Shown in pieces: positions 26,505 to 46,832 of a DNA stretch of 50,580 bases (position 1 is the stretch's first letter; the number at the start of each line of letters is the position of its first letter). The DNA lies in contig JAFGXD010000049.1 in the NCBI GenBank assembly GCA_016936815.1, positions 1-50,580 of the forward strand, read 5' to 3'. Position numbers and translations under genes: made by a program. The notes under the pieces were generated by a model. That model was not told where the DNA came from, did no database searches, and saw nothing but the letters and a program-made list of their open reading frames with translations. The DNA comes from Bacteroidales bacterium (lineage in GTDB: Bacteria > Bacteroidota > Bacteroidia > Bacteroidales > GWF2-38-335).

Positions 26505-27248
26505 CTAGAAATTAAGTCTTGATTTTAATTCTTTATACCCTGTTTTACTAACTTTCAGATTAACTCCGTTCTTAAGAATCAAGGAATATGACTCTTTCTC
26601 GAAAAGTTCTATTTTATCAATAAAAGCAATATTTACAATGCTGGAACGATGAATTCTAATAAAAATATCTTTTGGCAAATGGGCTTCATAATAATTCATG
26701 GTGCTTTTTTTAAGATATTTTTTATCGGATGTATAAAACATTACATAATCGTCTTGGGCTTCTATGTAAATAATTGAATCAATGGGTAATACATTAATTT
26801 TACTGCCGGATTTCACTACAATTCTAGAAATTTCTTCAACTGCTTGATTAATTGTGTTTTTGACTTTTTCAGCATTTCTTACCGAAGGAATATTTTCTAT
26901 TTTTTCAATAGCTTTGTTTACAGCATCCGTAAATCTTTCTTTTGAATATGGTTTCAATAGATAATCTACCGCATTCATTTCAAATGCTTTAAGTGCAAAT
27001 TGGTCGTATGCTGTTGAAAATATTACTATTGGCATTTCTTCCATAAGTTCAAGCATTTCAAATCCTGTTAGCTTGGGCATTTGTACATCCAGAAAAACTA
27101 AATCAGGTTTATTTTCCTGTATTGTTTTCAAACCTGTGAAACCATCTTCACATTCTGCAATTATTTCAATAGAATTAAACTCTTTTAGATAGGCCTTTAT
27201 TAGCTCTCTTGCCGGTTTTTCATCGTCAATTATTATTACTCGTATCAT
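26505..27248 (-). CDS. LytTR-family response regulator
   Basis: This 247-residue regulator has a receiver domain with the phospho-acceptor D54 in LVFLDVQMPKLTG, the acidic pocket IIDDEKPA at the start and the conserved Lys in DYLLKPYSKERF. The C-terminal LytTR DNA-binding domain (about 140-247) shows YIEAQDDYVMFYTSDKKYL and FIRIHRSSIVN. Such regulators control envelope or secreted functions. It follows the sensor kinase gene by one base and the membrane LiaF-like gene precedes both, so the three form one operon. Confidence 0.94.
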   Translation of the reverse strand: MIRVIIIDDEKPARELIKAYLKEFNSIEIIAECEDGFTGLKTIQENKPDLVFLDVQMPKLTGFEMLELMEEMPIVIFSTAYDQFALKAFEMNAVDYLLKPYSKERFTDAVNKAIEKIENIPSVRNAEKVKNTINQAVEEISRIVVKSGSKINVLPIDSIIYIEAQDDYVMFYTSDKKYLKKSTMNYYEAHLPKDIFIRIHRSSIVNIAFIDKIELFEKESYSLILKNGVNLKVSKTGYKELKSRLNF

Positions 27249-27249
27249 G

Positions 27250-28305
27250 TTATTCTTGATTTTGAGGTATTATCAATACTACTGTAAATTTATTCTCTGT
27301 TTTTTTTATTGAAATAAGATCCGATTGTTTATAAATTAAATTCAATCTGTTTTTTACGTTTTTTAATCCAACACCTGCTCCTTTTCTTGGGGGTGTTTCA
27401 GAATCGAAATCATTTTCAATGGTTAGTTTTAAATAACTCTGGTTGCAATCTGCTAATAATTTAATATAGACAGTTTCAGTACTTTCATAAACACCGTGCT
27501 TTATTGCATTTTCAAGCAATGGCTGCAATAGTAAATTTGGAATTTGTTTGTTTTTACAATTTTCGGATATTTCCTGAACTATCTGTAGTTTCTCACCAAA
27601 TCTAACTTTTTCAATTTCTAAATATAGAAGCATATTAGATATTTCTTCGCTGAATGTTGAAAATTGACTCTGAGTTTTCGATAGTGAATAACGTAAATAT
27701 TCAGATAGTTTTACAACCATTTCTCTGGCTTTCTCCGAATCTGAAATTGTTAATGAACTTACCGAATTTAATGAATTGAAAAGAAAATGTGGATTAATCT
27801 GAAGTTTTAGTGCATTTAATTCAGCTTCTCTAACAAGAGTTCTAAGTTGTGATTCCTGCAATTCCTGTTCTTTAAAGCTATCGTAATATTGTTTGAAATA
27901 ATAGACCATTGCTGCTATTGAATAAAAGGCAAGTCCTGATATTGCTCTCCAAAAAAGGCTATTAAAATAAAATTCATTATAATTGAAATTTCCTAGCCAT
28001 ATTAAATCTACAATATTTTTGCTAATAACCTGCCAGACAAATACCAACAATGCTGCTGAAGAAATATGATTAATTATTACATTAATTAGGCTTGTGTTTT
28101 CAATTCTATTAAATCGGGTAGCATAAAAAACCGATAACGATAGAAAAGAAAGAACAAAATATGAAACAAAACCATCGAGAAGAACTAGTTGAAAAGGAAT
28201 TTCTATTGTGCTGGCTACCAGCAGCAAGTGGACGGCCAAAATGACTGTCCACAAACCAAAGTGAAGATATGTGTTAAACCTATTAAAGAAAACCGGATGT
28301 TGCAT
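27250..28305 (-). CDS. LytS-type sensor histidine kinase
   Basis: This 351-residue protein has four or so hydrophobic segments (about residues 15-140), then the His_kinase region with H173 in LQINPHFLFNSLNSVSSL, and a C-terminal ATPase domain with LLLQPLLENAIKHGV (N box) and GAGVGLKNVKNRL (G box). This is the LytS/YehU class, which usually pairs with LytTR regulators such as the one immediately downstream. The sensing region is entirely membrane-embedded, with no extracytoplasmic domain, which suggests sensing within the membrane or through a partner such as the LiaF-like protein encoded one base upstream. Confidence 0.94.
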   Translation of the reverse strand: MQHPVFFNRFNTYLHFGLWTVILAVHLLLVASTIEIPFQLVLLDGFVSYFVLSFLSLSVFYATRFNRIENTSLINVIINHISSAALLVFVWQVISKNIVDLIWLGNFNYNEFYFNSLFWRAISGLAFYSIAAMVYYFKQYYDSFKEQELQESQLRTLVREAELNALKLQINPHFLFNSLNSVSSLTISDSEKAREMVVKLSEYLRYSLSKTQSQFSTFSEEISNMLLYLEIEKVRFGEKLQIVQEISENCKNKQIPNLLLQPLLENAIKHGVYESTETVYIKLLADCNQSYLKLTIENDFDSETPPRKGAGVGLKNVKNRLNLIYKQSDLISIKKTENKFTVVLIIPQNQE

Positions 28306-28306
28306 A

Positions 28307-29038
28307 TTAAATTCTTTTTACATCTCCACCACCAAAAATCATTACTCCTTTTATTAATAGTTCTCTATTTTCGTCAATTTCAATTGTTGAATGTCGTATT
28401 TTTTTATCGTTAAATCCTCCAAAAATTGAAGTAACATCCGATTTTACTTTCCATGTAGTGGGAATAATTAGCTCGGTACCACCAAAAATATTTGTAATAT
28501 CTAGAATATTAGTTCCTTCAGCCAGTTCGGCAGAGGTTAAATCGACTTTAGATCCACCAAAAACAGAAACAATTCTTCCACCTTTAAAATTTTTTGAGGT
28601 AACGAATTGCATTCCTCCACCAAAAACATTATGTTCGTCTATTACATCCATATCGCTTTGTTTTTTGGTGAATCTTTGCGACTTTTTTCCATCGCCAAAT
28701 GACTTAAAGATAATAAATAGGCCAATTATTATAAGAACAGCCGGCCACCAAAGATGATGAACATTTTCATCAACAAATCCAAATTTTGGTAGAAGGAAAA
28801 TTGCACCAACTGTTATAAGTATAATTCCTCCAATGCTTCCATTTTTACTTGTTAGAGAAATAATTCCTATACCAATTAGCAACGATTGCCAGGTAAAGAT
28901 GTATTTTTCCACATCGGGATCAAGTGCGTTTAGGTATTTAGCGGCAAACAGACCACCGGCTATTATAAAAACCAGCCCTGTTAGTAATCGTCGGGAGCCA
29001 CCCGAGCTGCATTTTGTTTCAACTTCAACTTTATACAT
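28307..29038 (-). CDS. LiaF-like membrane protein (four TM segments plus beta C-terminal domain)
   Basis: This 243-residue protein has four transmembrane stretches between about residues 15 and 110 (GLVFIIAGGLFAA, SLLIGIGII, GGIILITVGAIFLL, WWPAVLIIIGLFII). A C-terminal domain follows with four regularly spaced FGG motifs (NVFGGG, SVFGGS, NIFGGTE, SIFGGF) and a final IFGGGD, the pattern of the LiaF/YvqF C-terminal beta domain. In Firmicutes LiaF inhibits the LiaS kinase until envelope damage occurs. Its place as first gene before a kinase and regulator supports a similar sensing or inhibiting role. The mechanism is inference. Confidence 0.83.
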   Translation of the reverse strand: MYKVEVETKCSSGGSRRLLTGLVFIIAGGLFAAKYLNALDPDVEKYIFTWQSLLIGIGIISLTSKNGSIGGIILITVGAIFLLPKFGFVDENVHHLWWPAVLIIIGLFIIFKSFGDGKKSQRFTKKQSDMDVIDEHNVFGGGMQFVTSKNFKGGRIVSVFGGSKVDLTSAELAEGTNILDITNIFGGTELIIPTTWKVKSDVTSIFGGFNDKKIRHSTIEIDENRELLIKGVMIFGGGDVKRI

Positions 29039-29157: not shown

Positions 29158-29580
29158 TTAATATTTCAAATCCAATGTAAAATAGCCGCCCTTAATTTCC
29201 CAGCATGTTGAATCGCAATATTTTCTAGATTTTTTGTAGATTCTATCTCCATCTATTGCATAAATTGTTTGCCCATTATTTTTATATTGAGCCTTTACCG
29301 TATAATACTCATCTAGAGGAACTTCATAATAGAGAGTAGGTGTTCTTATTGAACATTGCTTAATTATTTGGTTTTCTTCAATTTTTCCGCGATAAATTGT
29401 AACAGGAACAAGGGTATTTTCTTCGTTTATGGTAAGACTTATTACCAATTCTCCCCAAAATGGCTCCCATGTGTCGCAATCAGAATAATCTGCGTCAACA
29501 CATTCGGTATCTTCAACTTCGCAGAAAGAAAATAAAACAGAAATAAGAGATGCTAGTAAAATAATTTTTTTCGTTTTCAT
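29158..29580 (-). CDS. Small exported Cys-containing protein
   Basis: The frame is open from an ATG at 29601, but the ATG at 29580 is preferred because it starts a signal peptide (MKTKKIILLASLISVLFSFC) and avoids overlap with the ankyrin gene stop; this gives 140 residues. A cysteine ends the hydrophobic stretch, but the Phe before it is unusual for a lipobox, so lipoprotein status is uncertain. The mature part holds more cysteines (TECVD, SDCDTW, YCDSTCW) and beta strands. No family is recognised. It is the last gene of the ankyrin transcript. Confidence 0.68.
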   Translation of the reverse strand: MKTKKIILLASLISVLFSFCEVEDTECVDADYSDCDTWEPFWGELVISLTINEENTLVPVTIYRGKIEENQIIKQCSIRTPTLYYEVPLDEYYTVKAQYKNNGQTIYAIDGDRIYKKSRKYCDSTCWEIKGGYFTLDLKY

Positions 29581-29591
29581 TACAATAAATT

Positions 29592-30995
29592 TTACAACCA
29601 TGAAATTGTTTTATTTACAGGACTGGTTTTCTTTTTATGAATCAGGAAATTAAGTTCAATAGTAAATCTACTTGCAGGTATTTCAGCTTCAAAAAATTTT
29701 AGATATGAATAATTTACCTTAAAAAATAATAATCTGCCTTTTAAGAATAGTCCAAGCTGAGGGGCTGTTATCCATTGTTTATCAACTTTTTCAGCAAATC
29801 CTCTATATTTACCATAAGTATAAGCTTCTCTTACTCCAAGTGCAAATCCATAAGATGAATATCCGGAACTGTAAAGGTCGAATCTTTTGCTTATATTAAA
29901 AGATAGAATTGATCTTCTTTCCCTTCTTTGTTCAAACACATCATCCTCAAGAGGATAAAGAGTTCTTATTGGCCAAAGTCTTGTTGCCCAGTCAATATCA
30001 AAACCTAGTTTATATCTTGAATCAATCCATCCAAGGCATAAGGAATACATATAATCTTTGGAATTAAATTCATTTCCATAACCCAACGACCAGGTATTAA
30101 ATTTTGGCCAGATTCCCATTTTTGCTCCGTTTTCCCTTAAGTATTCAGCAGTTTCTTTTTGGTTGTTGGCAAGTGCAAATTCTAATGGTTTCATATTCAT
30201 GTGTGGAATAGAATTTACGTTTTCACCATAGTTTAATAATTGAAAAATGACTTCGTTGTGTCCATTTCTAATTGCTGTACTATAAGCTGTTGAACCTCTG
30301 TTATTTATTATTGTGGTTCTAGCCTTATTTTTTAAAAGAATTTCAACAATTTCTGCATAACCGTTTTGTGCAGCAAGTATTAAAGGGGTTGAACCCGAAT
30401 AATCTACTGCATTAATATCTGCACCTCTAAGAATAAGTATATTAACCAAGTCTTTATATCCGTAATATGCTGCAATATGCAAAGGAGTATTCCAATCTTT
30501 GTCTCTACATTCGATTTTTGCTTTATAGAAAAGAAGCATATCTGTCATTATTGTATAATTATAAGCTACTGAATATATTAGAGGTTCAGCATTGTATCCG
30601 TCTTCCATTTCAATATTTGCTCCTTTTTGAATAAGGTATTCTGCAACTGAATCGTGATTAAATTTTACAGCAGCTGTAAGCACCGGAGTAGCATCGTAGG
30701 TGTATGGTTTTGCATTTACATCGGCACCATTTGCGACAAGAGTTTTTACGGTTTTTAAATGGCCTTTTTGAGTGGCATACATAAGAGCAGAAACACCGTC
30801 GTATGTAACAGCATTTACATTTGCGCCTTGTTTTAGTAATATTAATACCGAATCGGCATCACCTTTTTCGGCTACAAAAAGCAAACGAGTGTTAAGTAAT
30901 TCAATATTAATAGAATCTGTTTTTGTTGCTACTGTATCCTGTGCGTTTGCAAGACCCATTAATAGGCAAAAAGCAGTTAATAAAATATTTTTCAT
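29592..30995 (-). CDS. Exported ankyrin-repeat protein with a probable outer-membrane C-terminal domain
   Basis: This 467-residue protein has a signal peptide (MKNILLTAFCLLMGLANAQ). Residues about 35-300 hold around eight ankyrin repeats with clear consensus (DGVSALMYATQKGHLKTVK, NTPLHIAAYYGYKDLV, GSTPLILAAQNGYAEIVE). Residues about 305-467 are different: alternating, aromatic-rich strands (YMYSLCLGWIDSRYKLGF, FALGVREAYTYGKYRGF, LLFFKVNYSYLKFFE, RFTIELNFLI) that look like a small outer-membrane beta-barrel. The ankyrin array would then face the periplasm. The gene follows the larger ankyrin gene by about 28 bases. Partners are unknown. Confidence 0.85.
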   Translation of the reverse strand: MKNILLTAFCLLMGLANAQDTVATKTDSINIELLNTRLLFVAEKGDADSVLILLKQGANVNAVTYDGVSALMYATQKGHLKTVKTLVANGADVNAKPYTYDATPVLTAAVKFNHDSVAEYLIQKGANIEMEDGYNAEPLIYSVAYNYTIMTDMLLFYKAKIECRDKDWNTPLHIAAYYGYKDLVNILILRGADINAVDYSGSTPLILAAQNGYAEIVEILLKNKARTTIINNRGSTAYSTAIRNGHNEVIFQLLNYGENVNSIPHMNMKPLEFALANNQKETAEYLRENGAKMGIWPKFNTWSLGYGNEFNSKDYMYSLCLGWIDSRYKLGFDIDWATRLWPIRTLYPLEDDVFEQRRERRSILSFNISKRFDLYSSGYSSYGFALGVREAYTYGKYRGFAEKVDKQWITAPQLGLFLKGRLLFFKVNYSYLKFFEAEIPASRFTIELNFLIHKKKTSPVNKTISWL

Positions 30996-31023
30996 TTTAT
31001 TTTTTTCTTAATAACTTTCAATA

Positions 31024-33066
31024 TTATTCATTTTCATTGATTTCTGAGCCTGATTTGGCTCCTTTTTTTCTTAATACTTCTTTCATTCTTTCATCTTGGG
31101 TTAAATCTAAAACTGTTTTTCCAAAGGCATCAACTGTATTTAACTCAGCATTTTTTTCTAAGAGATATTTCATAATTTCATATTCATTTCTTACTGCTGA
31201 AATCATAATTGGTGTCATGTTGTAATATTGGTTTAGTTTATCGTCTAACGCCATCATTTTTGCATTAATATCAGCTCCATTTTCAATAAGAAACTTAAGC
31301 ATTTCAAGGTTTTCCATAAATACAGCAAGGTGGGCGGGACCCCAATAATTTTCATTTGCCAAATTTAACTCGGCGCCGTTTTCAATCAGGTATTTCACCA
31401 AATTCAGATTATTATTCTGAATTGCAAGTTTTATTGCTGTTCCTTCCGGATAAACTACAGCATTAATATTGCTGCCTTTTCTTATTAGAAAATCTACCAT
31501 AATTTCATCATTTTTTTGGCAGGCCGACATTAATGGAGTCCAGGTAGTATCTTCGGGATTTAATTCTGCTTTTTTCATTAAGAGATAATTTACAATATTT
31601 GTATCTCCTGATTCGGCTGCAAAACAAAGAAGATCCATAGGTGCAGAATTTGACTTTCTTATTCTGTAATTAATATCTGGGTTTTGTTCGTTTTCAATTA
31701 ATAATTTCAGTAATTTAAAGTTGGCTTCCTGAGCTGCGGGCATCAAAGCAGACCAATCTTTATCTTCAAAAACTTCAATTTTTGCTCCTTTATTAATAAG
31801 TTTTTCAACAAGTTCTAAATCTTGATTTTTACTGGCCAGTTTTAAAGCTGTTTCAAAATAGGTGTTTACTGCATTTATGCAATCGTAATTATGGTTTAAA
31901 ATAATATTAGTCATTTCTTTTCTTCCTTCAGCAATAGAAATCATTAATAATGAAGAATTAAATGAAGCGAAGACTTCTTTTATTTTTGCTGAATTAAATA
32001 TTTTTTCAAAAGCGTAATAATTGTTTTCTAAAATTGCAATTATTAATGAATTTGCCGGATTTATTATTTTAATATCTTGAATTAACTTATCTAATAGTTC
32101 ATTATCATTTTTAATAATAACGTTAAATAATTTAGTTTCCTCCTCAATTCCCTGTTTAATAAATGGTTTCAACTCTTCATTTGCATAATCTAAAACCGTT
32201 TTATTCAAGTTATCGGTTTTTGATAATACTGCCCCATAATTAATTAATAGTTTTGCAACCTCGTTATTATTATTAGATGCTGCAAACATAAGCGGAGTAG
32301 TTAATTCCGGATTTCTAACATTTGGATTTGCTTTTAATAGAAGTAGTGTTTCAATAGTTTTTATATTAGCATTGGTTTTGCAAGCAAATAATAGTGGTGT
32401 TCCAATTAATTCAGAGTTTTCAGCTATTTCAGAGTAATTTATGTGAGCTCCGGCTTTTACAAGTAATTCAATTAATTCCAAATTGTTATTAATTGCAGAA
32501 TAAATTAATGGTGTAAAACCAAATGAATTGGCAATGTTTATTTTTGCTCCTGCTTTTATTAGCAATTCCGAAGATTTAGTATTTGAAGCACTGCAAGCGT
32601 TAATAAGTGGAGTATTTCCAAAATAATCCGAAGCATTTATTTCAAATTTATTGCTTAAAATAAGCATTTCAATAAATTGAGGATTATTACTTTTCGATGC
32701 AAAATGTAGTATATTTTCTCCCTTGTTATTTAATGCCAAAATATCTACCTTATTTTCAAGTAAATGGTAACATTCAACACCTCTAATATAATGACTTACA
32801 GTTGTTCCATTGTTGGTTTTATGGTTTAAGTCGGCTCCTTTTTCAATAATAAGTTTTACAATTTTCAAATCATTAAATTCCAGAGCTTTCATAATAGGAG
32901 TTTCCATTTCTTGATTTATAGAATTTACAAGCTCCTTATTTTTCTTCAAAATAATTTCAACTTCCTGATAATTATGCTTTTCTATAGCAATAAAAATGTT
33001 TTGAGCAATTAATGTTGTATTTGCTAAGATTAATAAAAAAAATATTGATGTTATTTTAAGGCTCAT
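31024..33066 (-). CDS. Large exported ankyrin-repeat protein
   Basis: The ATG at 33066 (MSLKITSIFFLLILANTTLIAQ) starts a good signal peptide and is preferred over an upstream ATG at 33096; this gives 680 residues. Nearly all of the mature protein is a continuous solenoid of roughly 16-18 ankyrin repeats. Some are near consensus (GNTPLINACSASNTKSSELL, GFTPLIYSAINNNLELIELL, TWTPLMSACQKND) and the ones around residues 300-390 are degenerate. No catalytic domain is present. Ankyrin repeats bind other proteins, so a periplasmic scaffold or inhibitor is inferred. It heads the ankyrin transcript. Confidence 0.88.
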   Translation of the reverse strand: MSLKITSIFFLLILANTTLIAQNIFIAIEKHNYQEVEIILKKNKELVNSINQEMETPIMKALEFNDLKIVKLIIEKGADLNHKTNNGTTVSHYIRGVECYHLLENKVDILALNNKGENILHFASKSNNPQFIEMLILSNKFEINASDYFGNTPLINACSASNTKSSELLIKAGAKINIANSFGFTPLIYSAINNNLELIELLVKAGAHINYSEIAENSELIGTPLLFACKTNANIKTIETLLLLKANPNVRNPELTTPLMFAASNNNNEVAKLLINYGAVLSKTDNLNKTVLDYANEELKPFIKQGIEEETKLFNVIIKNDNELLDKLIQDIKIINPANSLIIAILENNYYAFEKIFNSAKIKEVFASFNSSLLMISIAEGRKEMTNIILNHNYDCINAVNTYFETALKLASKNQDLELVEKLINKGAKIEVFEDKDWSALMPAAQEANFKLLKLLIENEQNPDINYRIRKSNSAPMDLLCFAAESGDTNIVNYLLMKKAELNPEDTTWTPLMSACQKNDEIMVDFLIRKGSNINAVVYPEGTAIKLAIQNNNLNLVKYLIENGAELNLANENYWGPAHLAVFMENLEMLKFLIENGADINAKMMALDDKLNQYYNMTPIMISAVRNEYEIMKYLLEKNAELNTVDAFGKTVLDLTQDERMKEVLRKKGAKSGSEINENE

Positions 33067-33170
33067 GATATTTACAAATGAATAAATGATTATCAAAAAT
33101 TGGACAAAAAATAGAAAATCGAAAAAATATTACAATTGTAAAAGTAATTAATTAGCGCAAAAAAGGAAAA

Positions 33171-33866
33171 CTAATTTTCAAAAAGAATCATGTCGAAGCA
33201 AAAACCATGATATAAGGTTAATTCAGGAAAAAAAGGGTTGTTTTCGTATTGCATCTGATCTTTAATCAGGTGCTTATAATCGGAACTTTCTTTTTCTCCA
33301 GTACCAACATTGACCAATAATATTTTTTTTCCTTTAAAGTAAAATTCTCTAACTGAATTTAGATTAAAAGGTTCTCCCATTCCACCTGCTGCAACTAGTT
33401 CTCTTTCAGCAAGGCTGTTTTTTGGTAAATCAATAAGAACTGATTTTTGTTCATTTTTAATAAAAATCGAATCTTTTGATATTCTATGCAATAATAAACC
33501 GGCACATTGAGGTTGATGTCTGCATAGTTTTATTTTGCTTATATCCAGATACTCATAAATATTGCCATCAATTTTCTCTTTTGCCTTGAAGAATATTTTT
33601 TCTAATTCATTAGAATAATTATCAGAGTTTAGCATTATAGAATCTAAGGAATAAAAAACCGATAATGAATTATTTTCAAAAGATAGAATATTAGCTGTTC
33701 CCGACCATGAGTTTTTGTTTGTGGCATCTCTAATCATTTCAATTTGAAGAAATAGTAAAGAGCTATCTGAAATGGCAATAGGAAATAGTCGGTATTGATA
33801 AGCTCTATGGCAGGCAAATGAGGAAAGGGAAATAATAAGAAAAAAAATTACTGCAATTTTCCTCAT
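33171..33866 (-). CDS. Probable exported lipoprotein of unknown function
   Basis: This 231-residue protein begins MRKIAVIFFLIISLSSFAC, a signal peptide ending in a plausible lipobox cysteine. The mature part has paired cysteines (LCRHQPQCAG) and a GGMGEPFN loop. I recognise no family. It lies 2 bases downstream of the 190-residue outer-membrane-like gene and 104 bases ahead of the large ankyrin gene, so the two neighbours may share a transcript while ankyrin expression could be separate or read through. Confidence 0.65.
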   Translation of the reverse strand: MRKIAVIFFLIISLSSFACHRAYQYRLFPIAISDSSLLFLQIEMIRDATNKNSWSGTANILSFENNSLSVFYSLDSIMLNSDNYSNELEKIFFKAKEKIDGNIYEYLDISKIKLCRHQPQCAGLLLHRISKDSIFIKNEQKSVLIDLPKNSLAERELVAAGGMGEPFNLNSVREFYFKGKKILLVNVGTGEKESSDYKHLIKDQMQYENNPFFPELTLYHGFCFDMILFEN

Positions 33867-33868
33867 AA

Positions 33869-34441
33869 TTAATAGTTGAAGGGTGAAAAAAGTCCATTTC
33901 CATAAGAATAAGGATTTCTGTTAGGGAAAATTGAACCATTGGATTGTATATAGTTAATCTCAACACCAATACTAAGTTCTTTGTTTATTTTATATTCTAA
34001 ATCTAAGGAGTAGATATTTGAAACCGGGAATAAGGTTGCATTTACGTTACCAATATTTTTCATAATTGAGCCGGTAATAAACAATTTGGAACCTGCCTGA
34101 TATGTTCCGCCAATTGTTAAAAATGTTGCCATACCTGAATTAGCCGGCACATATCCTGTTCCTTCCGAATTAGGTTGAAAACCAAAAATATTTGTATTCA
34201 CAAACATACCTCCAATATTAAGCCGGAATCGGGAATTTATTGAGTAAGAAGCTTGTGGATGAAAATAGGAACAAAACATTTGTTTGTTGTTGCCAAAAGA
34301 AAGGTAAGTACTTCCGGCAGTTAATTTATACTCAATATTTTTTTGTTCAAATTGCTTATTAAAAAGACTGTCATTATTGGGATTCTGACTAAATGCCCAT
34401 AATACGGAGAGAAAAAGAAACAGAGTTGTAAAAACTTTCAT
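33869..34441 (-). CDS. Small outer-membrane-like protein
   Basis: This 190-residue protein has a signal peptide (MKVFTTLFLFLSVLWAFSQ). The rest is amphipathic beta-strand-like with many Gly, Asn, Tyr and Phe residues (YKLTAGSTYLSFG, ASYSINSRFRLNIGGMFVN, YSLDLEYKINKELSIGVEINYI), the composition of a small outer-membrane barrel. No family is recognised. The C-terminus FSPFNY ends in an aromatic residue, as barrel proteins often do. It precedes the 231-residue lipoprotein-like gene by 2 bases. Confidence 0.65.
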   Translation of the reverse strand: MKVFTTLFLFLSVLWAFSQNPNNDSLFNKQFEQKNIEYKLTAGSTYLSFGNNKQMFCSYFHPQASYSINSRFRLNIGGMFVNTNIFGFQPNSEGTGYVPANSGMATFLTIGGTYQAGSKLFITGSIMKNIGNVNATLFPVSNIYSLDLEYKINKELSIGVEINYIQSNGSIFPNRNPYSYGNGLFSPFNY

Positions 34442-40245: not shown

Positions 40246-43200
40246 TTATTTTCCATCAATCTTAACTCTAATTCCTTCCGAATGTGATGTAAATTCGGGT
40301 GCATACATGCACTGAATTGTTGTAATTCCGTTCGAAAAGTCGCCCTGATGTGTTACCCTTACAGGATATTCGAAAACGTAGGTTCCTTTTGGTAAATATG
40401 AGAAGAAGAAGTTTGTTGAAACATCTTTTGTTGATTCATAATAACCAAGTCCATCCTGATATTTGTATCTGGAAATTACATTCAATGGCTCAAAACCCGA
40501 TGCTCGCATATCTTTCATGTGCACGTATTCCATTAGCCTGTCTACTCTCAATTCAATTCTTACAACCACTTTATCTCCAACTTTAAGCTCTGTCTTGTCA
40601 ATTGGTTCCAGTCTTTCTCCAGAACTTGTTCTTCGTTCAACAAAAAGTTTTTTGGTAAGTTTTAAAGGAGTTTCGTGAGTAGTAATTTTATCGAGTTGCT
40701 CAAAATACTGCCAATACATTGCACCCCAGCTTACGCCAACGTCTTTTTTAGTAACTGTAATATTACCCATTTCGTTTGTTATTTCTCCCGGTCCCCAAGA
40801 AGTTTTAAAATAGCCTGTTCCTGCTTCAACCTGAACGCCAGGAATCTTTTTAGGATCAATAATTTTGTCGGCCACTTTAATTTCAACATTCGATTCGGTA
40901 GCAAGCCATTCTGTTCCTCTTAGCAACAGAGCATAAACAGCTTCAGTGGTTGCTTTTGTAGTTTTCCAGTCTTGCGTTTGCTTTTGTTTTAGCAACCAAA
41001 CACGCAGATTATCAACTTTTTCCTGATTGGCAGTAATCTCATCAAATGCCTCAATCATAAGAGCTTGTGTTTCAATTGGAGCTTGATACCAGTAGTAACC
41101 GCCCTCGGTTTGCGATTTCCAGTACATACCCATTTCTTCAGAGTTTAAAGCATGTTCGTCGAGAGATTTCATTATTGCCTGAGGAGTTTCTTTATCTTCG
41201 AAACGGTGCAAAGAAAGTGCTATCATTGCCTGCATATACTGGTTAAAGTTAAGCCAATATTTTTCTGCCTGACCTTTATAATAGTTAAAAGCCTCCTGAT
41301 CTCTTTTGTCGATTTTAAAATCTTCCATAAAGTAAGACCTGCAATATAAATACTGAACCTGAAGATAGCTTATTTGCATTTTTTCCATTTCAGTTTTGGT
41401 ATAATGCTTTTTAAGGTATTCATAGTCTTTTCTAATCTGACCATCCAGATAATTAACTCCATCTTTGGCCATTTTCCAAATGCGGTTATCGTCTCTAATG
41501 CTTTTTACACCAAGTCGGTCGAGGTGACCAAAACCGGTAATAATATGCTGAGTCATGTACCTGTCAACCGGCATTCCCGGGAACCAAGTCCATCCACCAT
41601 AAGGAGCCTGAAGTTTGTCCAGTTTTCTAATTGCCGACTCCAAATTTGCTGCCATGTGGTTTAAATCGAAAAGCAATCCAACTCGTCTTTTACGTTCGCT
41701 TTCATCCTGAGCATCTAGTACCCATGGAGTTTCCTGAAGTAAGACCTCTTTTAGTTCCTGATTTTTTTCAAGATTTGAAAGAAGAGCTTTTGAGCCGGGA
41801 GTATCTCTCCATGCATCGAAAACCTTTTTAATTTTTGGGTTTGAATTTGCAATATGAGAAGCAATACTATTTGCATAGAATCTTGAGAATATTTGCTCGG
41901 CACATTCGTATGGGTATTCAATTAAATATGGAAGAGCCTGAACAGCATACCATGCCGGATTAGCAGTAAACTCAAGGGTTACTTTATGATGCTTAAGCGT
42001 TTTTGAATTGTTATTTACTAATTTAGTGAATGTAAAGTTTTTAGTCTGATTACCTCTAATTGGTAAAGGAAGCGATTCGGTAACAAGCATTCTGTTGGAA
42101 AGAACCGGAATGGTGTTTTCTTCGCCATCGGAATGTTTGCTGGTTTGAGCAGTAATTTTATAAGTAACAGCCTGAACTTCTTCAGGTATTTCCAATTCCC
42201 ATGAAACATTAACCGAAAGACCTTTCTTAACAGAGAATGATTGTGAGATGTTTTTATTCTTAAGCAAAGCATCAACAGGTTTCATTGTAAGAGCATCGAA
42301 AAGTTGAAGTTTGGCAACCCCGCTTTGGTCTGCTTCGCTAACGTTAGAGATTTTTGCATAAATAGTTATCTTATCGTTTTCCCTGAAGAATCTTGGTACA
42401 TTTGGCATTACCATAAGGTCTTTCTGAGTAACAAGCTCGTTATTTATTAGACCATATTTTAAATCTTTGGTATAAGCAAGACCCATCATTTTCCATTTGG
42501 TAAGCGATTCAGGAACAGTAAATTCAATAATTACTTCACCATTTTCATTTGTCTTAAGCTGAGGATAGAAGAAGGCTGTTTCTGCAAAATTTGTTCTGGT
42601 TTTAACAGGCATTAGTCCTCCTCCGGCTTCACGAGAAACAGTTTGCTCATTCTCTGCACGACTGCCGGACATTGGAGATTGAGCAGTTAAAGTGGAAGTT
42701 GAACCGGTAACAAGGCCAACATCTTTTTCTTTTTCGGCTGATTTTTTATCTACAGAAGCAACAGCATCCATTACTGGTAATGATTCTTCTGCAAGTTCAT
42801 AATCATAATCATCCATGCTTCCATCACTCTTACTATAATATCTCCTGTTGTACCGCCCGTCGTAATTGCCATAACTTCCATAATAATAATTGAACCAATT
42901 TAAACTTTCATAATATCTATTAGCAGGATACAAATACTCATTCCAACTGTCTTGCATAACCTGCATGTAAGAGTATGCAAACGACTGATTTGTATTCCAA
43001 TACAAAGTAGTATAATTAGACTGGACAACATTAAACCACCAAGAATTTGCTCTAAAAGCATCAAGAGACGCATCGTAAAGAGTTGCCATCATTTCTGCTG
43101 CAACTTTTTCTCCATCGGGTCCTTTAATTGAAATTCTCCATTTCTCGTTTTCACCCGGATAAAGTTTATCTCTAAAAGTTTCGAACTTCATTTTAAGTTC

Positions 43201-46200
43201 TTTGTTAGACCAAGGCACATAAACCATATCGGAATAAACGTAACTTCTTCCATTCTTAACAAAAACAAAATGAACCGAGAAATTACCCCTATGTTTCTCT
43301 AAAACAGGAATTTCAATAAGTCTTTGTTCGTTGTTAATTGTTAGCCATTCTGAATGAACAATTTTTCCTTTAAATTCAATTTCGTAGCGCATTTTAACAT
43401 TGTCGGCAGCCGATCCAACCAGAAATTTAGCTGTTTCTCCGGGTTCGCATTTGTTCTTAACCGGAGTAAACCACGAGAATTCATTAACAGGAATATCTTT
43501 TGTACCCGAATCGAAAAGAGTAAAATACATTTGATATTCAACATCGGCACCAAATTCATCTTTAGATTTCACCTCAATGTAATATTCACCGGGAGCCCAG
43601 TTTTTCATGTTTTTTAAAGAAACTTCTTTTGATTCTTTAGTGGAGAATGAACCGGAGAATACTTCATCTCCAATTTTTCTTTGTGCGAGCTCATTTTCTT
43701 TTGAATAGACATCATTCGGGAAAAGTTTGTAAAATTCTTCCTTTGTAAAACTCTTAATATCGGGCTCAGTCCATAGTCTATTTCTAAAAAGCCTTGAGTT
43801 CTTTTCAACCTTCTTAATACTAATAGAACCATTAGCATCAACAGGTTCACCGGAAAGATTAAAAGCCTCAAGTTTAAATTTAGAAACCTCTTTTCTATCT
43901 ACTTTTGCTTCCAGGTCGCAACTTAAAACCATTGCTGTATATCCAACATAAACAATTGTTTGCGTACTTCTTGTTTCACCATTTATGTCGGTAACATCGG
44001 CAATAACAGTGTACATAAAACCCGGTTTCATTTTTTCGGGGATTGATTTATCGGGTTCGGCAAGAAATTCAATCTCGAACTTGCCCTCGTCGTTTGTTTC
44101 GCAAGTTCCAACTTTTACAATTTGTTCGGAAGTATTGTAAGGATTGTAGCCATACCACCTCATATAATACCAGTAATAAGGAAAGTATGCCATTCTCTTA
44201 ACCTGATAGGAAACAGATGCATTATCAACCATTGTTCCTGCGTAGGTTTTGGCTTCACCATCTACCTTAACATTTTGGTTAAGCTTGTAACTTCCGGTTA
44301 TTGGTTTAAAATTAACTTCAAATTTTGGTCTTTTGTATTCTTCCACAGAAACATAAATAGAACCGTGAGCATTTCTAATTTGCATATTTCCGGTTAAAAC
44401 ACCCTGAGGAGCTGTAAAAGTTCCTGAAATAGAGCCAAACTCGTTAGTAGTAAGTGATTTTTGTTCAATCAGCTGATAATTAACATCATAAAAATACACT
44501 ATTGTGTTATAATTAGGTTTAATTGTATAGTTTTCCCCATCGTAATCGAGCACCACAGCTTTGCAGTGTATGTTTTGTCCGGGACGGTATATAGCTCTGT
44601 CGGCATAAAAATAAGTTACTGTTCTGTGTTTGTCGTATTCATAAGCTCTATATTGGTAGAAATATTCGTTAGAAATAAGTTCTTCCACGCCATGATTAAT
44701 CCCAATAAAATAGCTAACCGAGTAATCGCTTTTAGGAGCATTAATTTTTACATATCCATCCTCATTTGTGTTAAGAACCATGTGTTTCTTTTCACGGTAA
44801 CGTTGAAGAAGATAATCCCATTCCTGCTGCCAAAGAGTAACTTTTGCATTTTCTAGAGGTTCTCCAGAATTTCTGTCTAAAACATAAACCTCGTAATCAT
44901 TGTCCTGTGTTTTTCTCTGCACATAACTAATGTTTGTTGATTGAACAAAACCGTAAACTACAGCATTTTCTGAATAAGAAAAATCAGAATTATGACTTGC
45001 AATAACAATATAATAACCTTTTTCCAATTCAGGAAGAACAATTTCGGTGTTGTGCATCTGAAAATCACCATCGTTTTTAAGAGCCACAGACCATTCCTTT
45101 TCGAACTTTAGTTTACGAAGAAAATCAATTAATTTATCGCCGTAAAGATTACGAACATCGTTATTGTATTTAAATCTGTCTATTTTCACAACCCTGAAAT
45201 ACATTTTGTCTATATTTTTCCATGAAACAGATATTTTGGATGGTTGTCCCGGAGTTACATACGCTTCAGCAGTCATTGAAACCATTTTTTGTTCAATCTG
45301 GTTTTTCAAATATTTACAATTATCGGAACCATAACCGTAAGTAAATCTATCGAGTGCTTCCGAGCAATAATCGTGAGCCTTTTTATTCATCCATTTATTG
45401 TCGTCCGACACAAGAGGCTGATATTTACCCCCTTCTGCTAAATAATATGAAGCAATAAGGAAAGCAACATCGTTAGAAATACTATGTTTAATATATTTTT
45501 GTTCCAGTTTAAGCAAAGCATTTAAATAAAGCTCAGATTTTTCGGGGTGAAGTGAGTATGAATTAGCAAGGGTAAGACGTTTAATTTCAATATCAACCAA
45601 TGCACTTGGATCTTCATCCGATAAGTGAAATTTTGTAAGCTCCTGAAGGATTTTTACAGCATAATATCTAAGAGAAAGAGTATCTGTAGTACTAATATTT
45701 ATAACAGAAAAAAACTCTGCTGAAGCAAAATAATCTTTACTTTCAATTTGAAAATCAGTTTCAGGACGAGTAATGCCCGATTCGGAATTCATAAAAAAAT
45801 CAACTGCTCTATGAGCCAAAAAGTCGTAAAGAGTAGGTCTGAATTTTCGGCTGTTTGGATATTGATTTAAAACATCATCGTAAATATCAATTCTTGTTCT
45901 TTGCAAGCTGTCAATATTTGAAAGAGAAGCTGTATAGTTTTTTACAATCTCGTCTAGGATTTTTTCCAGCGACCAAGTTAAAGGATCGGAATTATCGAAA
46001 GCTACAGTTTCGGTACGGTTGTAATATTGCCAACGATTGGCCTGATAAAATCCCCAATAAGTTTCGGCCAACATAGATTGAAGAACAGGTTTTAACGGAA
46101 AAGAAGCAGTAGAAATTTCTCCATTTAGGAACTCCAGATTCTTTTTAAAACCATCCTCTTCAATAGCCATTACGTATTTCTGTTTATAAATTATGGCCTT

Positions 46201-46485
46201 CACAATTTGGGCATAATTATTCTCCTTTTTGGCTACCTTATAAATATTATCAACTAGTTCTAAAGCAGATTTTGGCAATCCTTTCTTTTCCAATTCATCA
46301 ACTTTTTCCCACAAATCGGTGTAGGAAGCCCCCTTTTTAAATTCCAAATATGGTTTTTTGTCAGGCTTCATTTCATAAGAATAATTGACAATTATTGCAG
46401 ATGCAGTAACAAAAAACAGCAATACAGCAATAGTTACAAATAAAGTTTTTCGGCTCATTTTTCTTTGGTTTTTAGTGGTTTTCAT
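40246..46485 (-). CDS. Alpha-2-macroglobulin family protein with thioester motif
   Basis: The ATG at 46485 (MKTTKNQRKMSRKTLFVTIA) is preferred over the ATG at 46545 because it starts just before the single N-terminal membrane anchor; this gives 2079 residues. Macroglobulin-type domains fill the first two thirds (MG2-like RAIYRPGQNIHCKAVVLDY, then YKRPKFEV). A Tyr/Asn/Ser-rich low-complexity segment at about 1195-1285 is a candidate bait region. The alpha-2-macroglobulin domain follows (FFYPQLKTNENGEVIIEFTVPESLTKWK), then the thioester motif CAEQ with C1528, an alpha-alpha thioester barrel and a C-terminal receptor-like domain (FEPLNVISRYKYQ). Such proteins trap proteases in the periplasm. There is no lipobox and no adjacent pbpC. 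Confidence 0.92.
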   Translation of the reverse strand: MKTTKNQRKMSRKTLFVTIAVLLFFVTASAIIVNYSYEMKPDKKPYLEFKKGASYTDLWEKVDELEKKGLPKSALELVDNIYKVAKKENNYAQIVKAIIYKQKYVMAIEEDGFKKNLEFLNGEISTASFPLKPVLQSMLAETYWGFYQANRWQYYNRTETVAFDNSDPLTWSLEKILDEIVKNYTASLSNIDSLQRTRIDIYDDVLNQYPNSRKFRPTLYDFLAHRAVDFFMNSESGITRPETDFQIESKDYFASAEFFSVINISTTDTLSLRYYAVKILQELTKFHLSDEDPSALVDIEIKRLTLANSYSLHPEKSELYLNALLKLEQKYIKHSISNDVAFLIASYYLAEGGKYQPLVSDDNKWMNKKAHDYCSEALDRFTYGYGSDNCKYLKNQIEQKMVSMTAEAYVTPGQPSKISVSWKNIDKMYFRVVKIDRFKYNNDVRNLYGDKLIDFLRKLKFEKEWSVALKNDGDFQMHNTEIVLPELEKGYYIVIASHNSDFSYSENAVVYGFVQSTNISYVQRKTQDNDYEVYVLDRNSGEPLENAKVTLWQQEWDYLLQRYREKKHMVLNTNEDGYVKINAPKSDYSVSYFIGINHGVEELISNEYFYQYRAYEYDKHRTVTYFYADRAIYRPGQNIHCKAVVLDYDGENYTIKPNYNTIVYFYDVNYQLIEQKSLTTNEFGSISGTFTAPQGVLTGNMQIRNAHGSIYVSVEEYKRPKFEVNFKPITGSYKLNQNVKVDGEAKTYAGTMVDNASVSYQVKRMAYFPYYWYYMRWYGYNPYNTSEQIVKVGTCETNDEGKFEIEFLAEPDKSIPEKMKPGFMYTVIADVTDINGETRSTQTIVYVGYTAMVLSCDLEAKVDRKEVSKFKLEAFNLSGEPVDANGSISIKKVEKNSRLFRNRLWTEPDIKSFTKEEFYKLFPNDVYSKENELAQRKIGDEVFSGSFSTKESKEVSLKNMKNWAPGEYYIEVKSKDEFGADVEYQMYFTLFDSGTKDIPVNEFSWFTPVKNKCEPGETAKFLVGSAADNVKMRYEIEFKGKIVHSEWLTINNEQRLIEIPVLEKHRGNFSVHFVFVKNGRSYVYSDMVYVPWSNKELKMKFETFRDKLYPGENEKWRISIKGPDGEKVAAEMMATLYDASLDAFRANSWWFNVVQSNYTTLYWNTNQSFAYSYMQVMQDSWNEYLYPANRYYESLNWFNYYYGSYGNYDGRYNRRYYSKSDGSMDDYDYELAEESLPVMDAVASVDKKSAEKEKDVGLVTGSTSTLTAQSPMSGSRAENEQTVSREAGGGLMPVKTRTNFAETAFFYPQLKTNENGEVIIEFTVPESLTKWKMMGLAYTKDLKYGLINNELVTQKDLMVMPNVPRFFRENDKITIYAKISNVSEADQSGVAKLQLFDALTMKPVDALLKNKNISQSFSVKKGLSVNVSWELEIPEEVQAVTYKITAQTSKHSDGEENTIPVLSNRMLVTESLPLPIRGNQTKNFTFTKLVNNNSKTLKHHKVTLEFTANPAWYAVQALPYLIEYPYECAEQIFSRFYANSIASHIANSNPKIKKVFDAWRDTPGSKALLSNLEKNQELKEVLLQETPWVLDAQDESERKRRVGLLFDLNHMAANLESAIRKLDKLQAPYGGWTWFPGMPVDRYMTQHIITGFGHLDRLGVKSIRDDNRIWKMAKDGVNYLDGQIRKDYEYLKKHYTKTEMEKMQISYLQVQYLYCRSYFMEDFKIDKRDQEAFNYYKGQAEKYWLNFNQYMQAMIALSLHRFEDKETPQAIMKSLDEHALNSEEMGMYWKSQTEGGYYWYQAPIETQALMIEAFDEITANQEKVDNLRVWLLKQKQTQDWKTTKATTEAVYALLLRGTEWLATESNVEIKVADKIIDPKKIPGVQVEAGTGYFKTSWGPGEITNEMGNITVTKKDVGVSWGAMYWQYFEQLDKITTHETPLKLTKKLFVERRTSSGERLEPIDKTELKVGDKVVVRIELRVDRLMEYVHMKDMRASGFEPLNVISRYKYQDGLGYYESTKDVSTNFFFSYLPKGTYVFEYPVRVTHQGDFSNGITTIQCMYAPEFTSHSEGIRVKIDGK

Positions 46486-46832
46486 AAGTTCCGTTTTTAA
46501 TTCGGGGTATTTCAAATAAAAATACAATTTAATGATACACGGCAATACAAAATTCCATAAAAATTATTTTTTATTTTATTTTTTTATCGCAAACCAAAGC
46601 CTGAAAGGCTTATTTAATTTAGTCTCGAGGCATCGTAAGAGGTTTATTGATAAAAACAAAAAGAATAAAAGAAACGCAGCAGGAAAAAATACTTCAAACT
46701 ATCTTCTTTACAAACTATCGTAAAACAGTTAAAATGTTGATTGTTTTTACACCATTAAAGCATATTTTTCTAAAAAAATCATGTAGGTTTGTATCCTTAA
46801 AAATTATTGTTTCATAAAATAATTAAGCGATA
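46486..46832. other. 347-base divergent intergenic region
   Basis: This gap separates the divergent alpha-2-macroglobulin and citrate lyase genes. It is AT-rich. It holds a small hairpin (AAGCCT-GAA-AGGCTT at 46597-46611) and a TAGGTTTG box near the citrate lyase gene. A 63-codon plus-strand frame (46532-46723) has no coding features and is not called. No tRNA or recognised riboswitch was seen. Confidence 0.6.
46785..46792 (+). promoter_or_regulatory. Probable -7 box of the citrate lyase promoter
   Basis: TAGGTTTG matches TAnnTTTG and lies about 40 bases ahead of the citDE start codon. The -33 region is a T run without an exact TTTG. Confidence 0.42.

Follow-up and report, generated by a model that had tools for sequence, protein, structure and literature searches.

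Five consecutive open reading frames on the minus strand at 29158-34441 of the window (the whole 50,580-nt stretch analysed here, contig C171 of a genome of 3.58 Mb and 192 contigs) encode products that look exported, which raises the question of whether they make up one undescribed envelope system. All five frames are present in the list of translated open reading frames, and by inspection a signal peptide or a lipobox stands at the start of each: MKVFTTLFLFLSVLWAFSQ in 33869-34441, a sequence ending in SLSSFAC in 33171-33866, a sequence ending in LILANTTLIAQ in 31024-33066, MKNILLTAFCLLMGLANAQ in 29592-30995 and MKTKKIILLASLISVLFSFC in 29158-29580. An earlier note on this DNA, made from the letters and translations, had described five consecutive minus-strand genes for exported products and an envelope set that lacks an enzyme; both descriptions hold. 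The start of the lipoprotein gene is likely 29580 rather than 29601, and that of the long ankyrin gene is likely 33066 rather than 33096. The Pfam Ank_2 matches of the long ankyrin protein (5.5e-73) and of the 8-repeat protein (5e-42) are far beyond chance and bear out the ankyrin identity given to both; 16 repeats are detectable in the former, where about 17 had been counted, and the count of 8 stands for the latter. A promoter scan yielded nothing above shuffles, and a terminator scan found 4 against 2.6 expected, which is within noise. The features are summarized in Table 1.

Table 1. Features of the locus
Feature	Position	Strand	Basis and remarks
Ankyrin-barrel protein, core gene 1, 467 aa	29592..30995	-	Signal peptide, 8 ankyrin repeats, predicted C-terminal outer-membrane beta-barrel; family full-length across the order; AF2 pLDDT 92.7, pTM 0.81
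Ankyrin domain, residues ~31-292, eight helix pairs	30120..30905	-	Secondary structure and fold match; putatively on the periplasmic side
Predicted beta-barrel domain, residues 297-467, strands 299-453, probably 8	29595..30107	-	AF2 model, conservation, hydrophobicity alternation
Lipoprotein, core gene 2, 140 aa, lipobox Cys20, beta-sandwich	29158..29580	-	Putative disulfides Cys27-Cys122 and Cys35-Cys126; 38/38 co-occurrence with barrel
Exported 16-repeat ankyrin protein, satellite rather than core	31024..33066	-	Neighbour of the pair in this genus only
Lipoprotein-like protein, this genus only, separate pair with next gene	33171..33866	-	2/149 genomes
Small exported barrel-like protein, outside the module	33869..34441	-	Relatives in 28/149 genomes, other contexts

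Directly downstream on the same strand, 26505-29038 encodes a LiaF-like membrane protein, a LytS-type histidine kinase and a LytTR response regulator, the latter two named from sequence inspection. The arrangement resembles an operon for envelope stress or antibiotic response, and its genes have no conserved place beside the barrel and lipoprotein genes in other genomes. An open reading frame of 2099 codons lies on the minus strand at 40246-46545. The genome also encodes exported ankyrin proteins of 550 aa (L077 3142-4794) and 189 aa (L078 1770-2339) on other contigs, and proteins similar in size to both are present in the sister genome G001.

Two of the five genes are conserved together

Co-conservation of the five genes, which the earlier note had put forward as a check, was not found: only the ankyrin-barrel and lipoprotein genes are kept together across the order, which we surveyed in 149 genomes. 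A search with the full ankyrin-barrel protein at E 1e-20 recovers 42 of these genomes, a few of them through generic ankyrin matches, while a profile of the barrel domain finds matches in 40. The lipoprotein profile gives strong matches in 38 genomes, plus one marginal match at 9e-4. All 38 lipoprotein genomes fall among the 40 barrel genomes, with a Fisher p of ~2e-33, a value that ignores phylogeny and overstates independence, as it counts related genomes, many of them MAGs. G051 and G036 carry the barrel (weak in G036) with no recognised lipoprotein, and the barrel match in G066 is weak and paralogue-like. The pair is patchily distributed, being present in about a quarter of the order genomes.

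The barrel and lipoprotein genes are adjacent on one strand in 29 genomes (27 fetched loci, the window and G077). The gap between them is at most 20 nt in 20 of the 25 cases measured, and in 14 of the 25 it is negative, the genes overlapping. Nine genomes carry the two genes on different contigs, some at contig ends; in at least six of them (G141, G145, G069, G032, G070 and G044) the lipoprotein gene has other genes on both sides, well inside its contig. The co-occurrence is therefore kept across contigs, which indicates more than linkage. Clustering of all open reading frames around the pair revealed no third conserved family, so that no role can be inferred from the neighbours, and none of them is a gene that would name a client. 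Where the pair is split in G066, G044 and G070 (L101 99-1035, L103 174-1051 and L100 1930-3018), one and the same conserved gene of 139 aa (MKSYRKELWFN...) comes after the lipoprotein gene.

Of 395 genomes sampled across the phylum, two contain the lipoprotein, the window genome and G245, which lies outside the order; the barrel profile matches the same two genomes plus two fragments with stops. G245 (1 of 80 genomes of its order) has a 193-aa barrel protein that carries a signal peptide but lacks ankyrin repeats. The gene for it has a 4-nt overlap with the lipoprotein gene (L106 1-859), the lipoprotein running off the contig end. A barrel that lacks ankyrins yet overlaps the lipoprotein gene indicates that the core consists of barrel and lipoprotein. 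The ankyrin arm may be an addition to this core or may have been lost in G245. In contig searches, a small lipoprotein alignment retrieved eight named loci, mostly Bacteroidales/Bacteroidetes MAGs and one titled Chlorobiota, and the single ankyrin-barrel protein retrieved no relatives.

The other three genes behave differently. The gene 33171-33866 is present in 2 of the 149 genomes, both of this genus, its one relative being in G001. Weak relatives of 33869-34441, which matches DUF2490 only at E 0.047, occur in 28 genomes in other settings. In G001 the relatives of these two genes lie side by side (C16:60195-61447; L116 7184-8457), and the ankyrin genes lie elsewhere, on C7; the two are a second exported pair that is independent of the module. 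A 667-aa protein precedes this pair on C16. For 31024-33066, no conserved link to the barrel-lipoprotein pair was found among the 149 genomes beyond two genomes of the genus. In G001 (L013) a 673-aa ankyrin protein is encoded directly upstream of the pair, at the place equivalent to 31024-33066, which makes the 16-repeat gene a genus-level companion. With its side genes either unlinked or linked only within the genus, the five-gene set is a local assembly around a two-gene module.

The earlier note had taken ankyrin genes lying in unrelated places in related genomes as evidence against its proposal. This was found for the five-gene set, whose 33171-34441 pair is on another contig in G001, and was not found for the two-gene unit. 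Its suggestion of an undescribed system thus survives in a reduced form: a conserved, undescribed unit is present, but it comprises two genes, not five. Barrel and lipoprotein constitute an undescribed two-gene module of environmental Bacteroidales inside a five-gene run, and the literature searched contained no description of a fusion between ankyrin repeats and an outer-membrane barrel.

Architecture of the ankyrin-barrel protein

The 35 aligned ankyrin-barrel proteins of the order are conserved along their full length, including residues 297-467 of the 29592-30995 product, which carry no ankyrin match. The AlphaFold2 model calculated on this alignment (mean pLDDT 92.7, pTM 0.81) begins with eight ankyrin helix pairs at a 33-residue spacing, which are followed by long beta strands over residues 299-453. 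Residues 297-467 are predicted to form an outer-membrane beta-barrel domain, and the reading of this protein as an ankyrin solenoid and nothing more has to be extended accordingly, its ankyrin part being upheld. Read off the secondary structure, the strands probably number eight, if 330-338 and 343-350 form one broken strand. The alternation of hydrophobic and polar residues in the strands averages 2.47 versus 1.05 +/- 0.27 in shuffles, and none of 1000 shuffles reaches 2.47; such strong in/out alternation, as in membrane barrels, supports the barrel assignment. R339, Q356, E359 and R361 are near-invariant in the 35-homologue alignment, and the C-terminal tail of the domain often has a W and a hydrophobic residue at its end.

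The barrel domain has no convincing family in Pfam or NCBIfam. OMP_b-brl (PF13505) matches 2 of the 35 barrel domains at E <= 0.1 (best E 5.9e-4), the window member having no match, and a PDB sequence search with the barrel profile returned nothing. A fold search with the full protein was filled by ankyrins and bears on the solenoid only. The ankyrin domain superimposes on DARPins and ankyrin-1 with a VIA Z of ~30 and an rmsd of 2.0 over 260 aligned residues. Its conserved positions are mostly fold consensus; Y73, Q76, D152, M153 and Y157 are family-specific in the alignment and are candidates for a shared binding face. NCBIfam matches of the ankyrin protein to T4SS Ank effectors and MzaA were discarded as generic repeat matches, far below cut-off.

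The partner lipoprotein

The 29158-29580 product, previously set down as a small Cys-containing protein, is, judged by its lipobox, a lipoprotein of ~140 aa, with Cys20 invariant at the lipobox in 25 of 25 aligned homologues. The window copy has an unusual Phe at -1. Besides the lipid cysteine, four cysteines are conserved, and the homologues have in common the invariant lipobox Cys, a group of cysteines near the N-terminus and, at the C-terminal end, a C-x3-C motif with W or Y after it. In two members (L064 and L104) the first N-terminal cysteine and Cys122 are both lost, and Cys35 and Cys126 are kept. This paired loss points to one disulfide joining Cys122 to the first N-terminal cysteine (Cys27 in the window copy) and a second joining Cys35 to Cys126; two disulfides would fit an oxidising compartment.

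The lipoprotein is confidently modelled as one beta-sandwich (pLDDT 92.3). A fold search yielded no match at E <= 0.001. The top VIA rows reach a Z of 8.7 with an rmsd of 2.8 over 87 aligned residues and include CueP at Z 8.2; a CueP-like copper role was dropped, since the VIA matches reflect a common beta-sandwich arrangement. A PDB sequence search with the lipoprotein profile gave chance-level matches only, and Pfam and NCBIfam contain no convincing family; NigD and BSAP-5i were rejected as identities, matching in one or two members only. Evolutionary rates of the lipoprotein correlate at 0.46 with the barrel and at 0.43 with the ankyrin part; the former is not clearly above the latter, and the contact domain for the lipoprotein is not located by this comparison.

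Relation to known systems

Work on bacterial ankyrin repeats usually treats them as effectors or as binders in the cytoplasm. AnkB of Pseudomonas aeruginosa is an ankyrin protein reported in the periplasm and linked to catalase; to our knowledge it has neither a barrel nor a lipoprotein partner, unlike the module. Small barrels of the OmpA/OmpX type (OMP_b-brl) resemble the barrel domain in their apparently eight strands and periplasmic ends but have neither an N-terminal ankyrin arm nor a dedicated lipoprotein, and their Pfam family matches only the two homologues mentioned above. SusCD and BtuB-BtuG of Bacteroidota are likewise pairs, each made up of an outer-membrane barrel and a co-encoded lipoprotein seated on that barrel; those are large TonB-dependent barrels, whereas the module barrel is small and has no conserved nutrient-uptake genes nearby. 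We place the module among outer-membrane barrels with a dedicated lipoprotein, a known kind to which the ankyrin fusion would be new.

In Slam, an N-terminal TPR solenoid precedes a C-terminal DUF560 barrel, and the gene often lies beside a lipoprotein gene (PMC5449769). The module shares the order of repeat solenoid, C-terminal outer-membrane barrel and neighbouring cognate lipoprotein gene. It differs in that its repeats are ankyrin, not TPR, its barrel is small and occurs without a solenoid in G245, and neither the window protein nor the 35 barrel domains match DUF560. Bd3460 of Bdellovibrio, a self-protection protein with an ankyrin fold, binds endopeptidases of the envelope (PMC4686830). 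It has the ankyrin fold and acts on envelope enzymes, but it has no described outer-membrane barrel or lipoprotein partner, and no hydrolase gene is linked to the module in the clustering of open reading frames around the pair.

Proposed mechanism and alternatives

We propose, at even odds in our judgement, that the two-gene operon encodes an outer-membrane complex in which the barrel and the lipoprotein hold an ankyrin adaptor in the periplasm; the topology, the complex, the disulfides and the adaptor role are all inferred. The signal peptide would export the ankyrin-barrel protein, and its C-terminal barrel would enter the outer membrane with both ends periplasmic. Since both ends of such small barrels face the periplasm, the ankyrin domain is probably located there, and the eight-repeat solenoid would hang below the membrane and serve as an arm that binds proteins. 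Anchored in the outer membrane, the co-translated lipoprotein, a beta-sandwich braced by disulfides, would bind the barrel and be required for it to assemble or act. In this way the pair could tether, sense or restrain a client in the periplasm that the ankyrin arm holds. The pairing pattern could also reflect regulatory or assembly dependence instead of a stable complex.

One such dependence would make the lipoprotein a dedicated chaperone or plug that folds or stabilises the barrel in the style of LptE-LptD, with the ankyrin arm working alone. The strict co-occurrence and gene coupling of the two proteins would follow from this, as would the retention of the lipoprotein beside the ankyrin-less barrel of G245. 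We nevertheless regard it as unlikely: an apparently 8-stranded barrel is too narrow for a 12-kDa plug, small barrels normally fold by general machinery, and the explanation overlaps with that of a complex. Equally improbable in our estimate is self-protection, in which the exported arm would block an envelope hydrolase or toxin and the barrel and lipoprotein would fix it at the outer membrane. Bd3460, with its binding of envelope DD-endopeptidases (PMC4686830), is the precedent, and the patchy distribution over about a quarter of the order genomes is in keeping with it, but the neighbours vary everywhere and a hydrolase or toxin gene is never consistently adjacent.

The likeness to Slam (PMC5449769) suggests an exporter that takes its partner lipoprotein to the cell surface. 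Acidic residues after the lipid cysteine form the surface-lipoprotein export signal of Bacteroidetes (PMC5080379), and many lipoprotein members have them. However, the mean number of acidic residues at +2 to +6 is 1.84 versus 1.30 in 27 other nearby lipoprotein-like open reading frames, which is not a clear enrichment; passage of a folded domain through a barrel of ~155 residues and probably 8 strands is unlikely; and an ankyrin-less version exists in G245, whereas DUF560-only Slams are not found (PMC5449769). Export of this kind is therefore less probable still. That all five genes are one exported ankyrin system, as their common strand, small gaps and export sequences would allow, is very improbable, because 33171-34441 is a separate pair elsewhere in G001 and joint conservation is limited to the two core genes.

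The outer-membrane complex with a periplasmic adaptor thus remains our preferred reading. Taken further, and held tentatively, the module may be a previously undescribed outer-membrane machine of Bacteroidales, in which a barrel-lipoprotein core gained an arm. The small barrel would then work solely together with its dedicated lipoprotein and expose an ankyrin solenoid on the periplasmic side, to capture or shield periplasmic proteins. The tight genomic pairing makes the module directly testable, and the lipoprotein family is a clean marker for finding it. If the proposal is true, the conserved fusion of ankyrin repeats to a barrel, together with a near-obligatory lipoprotein, would represent a new design for a periplasmic adaptor seated at the outer membrane.
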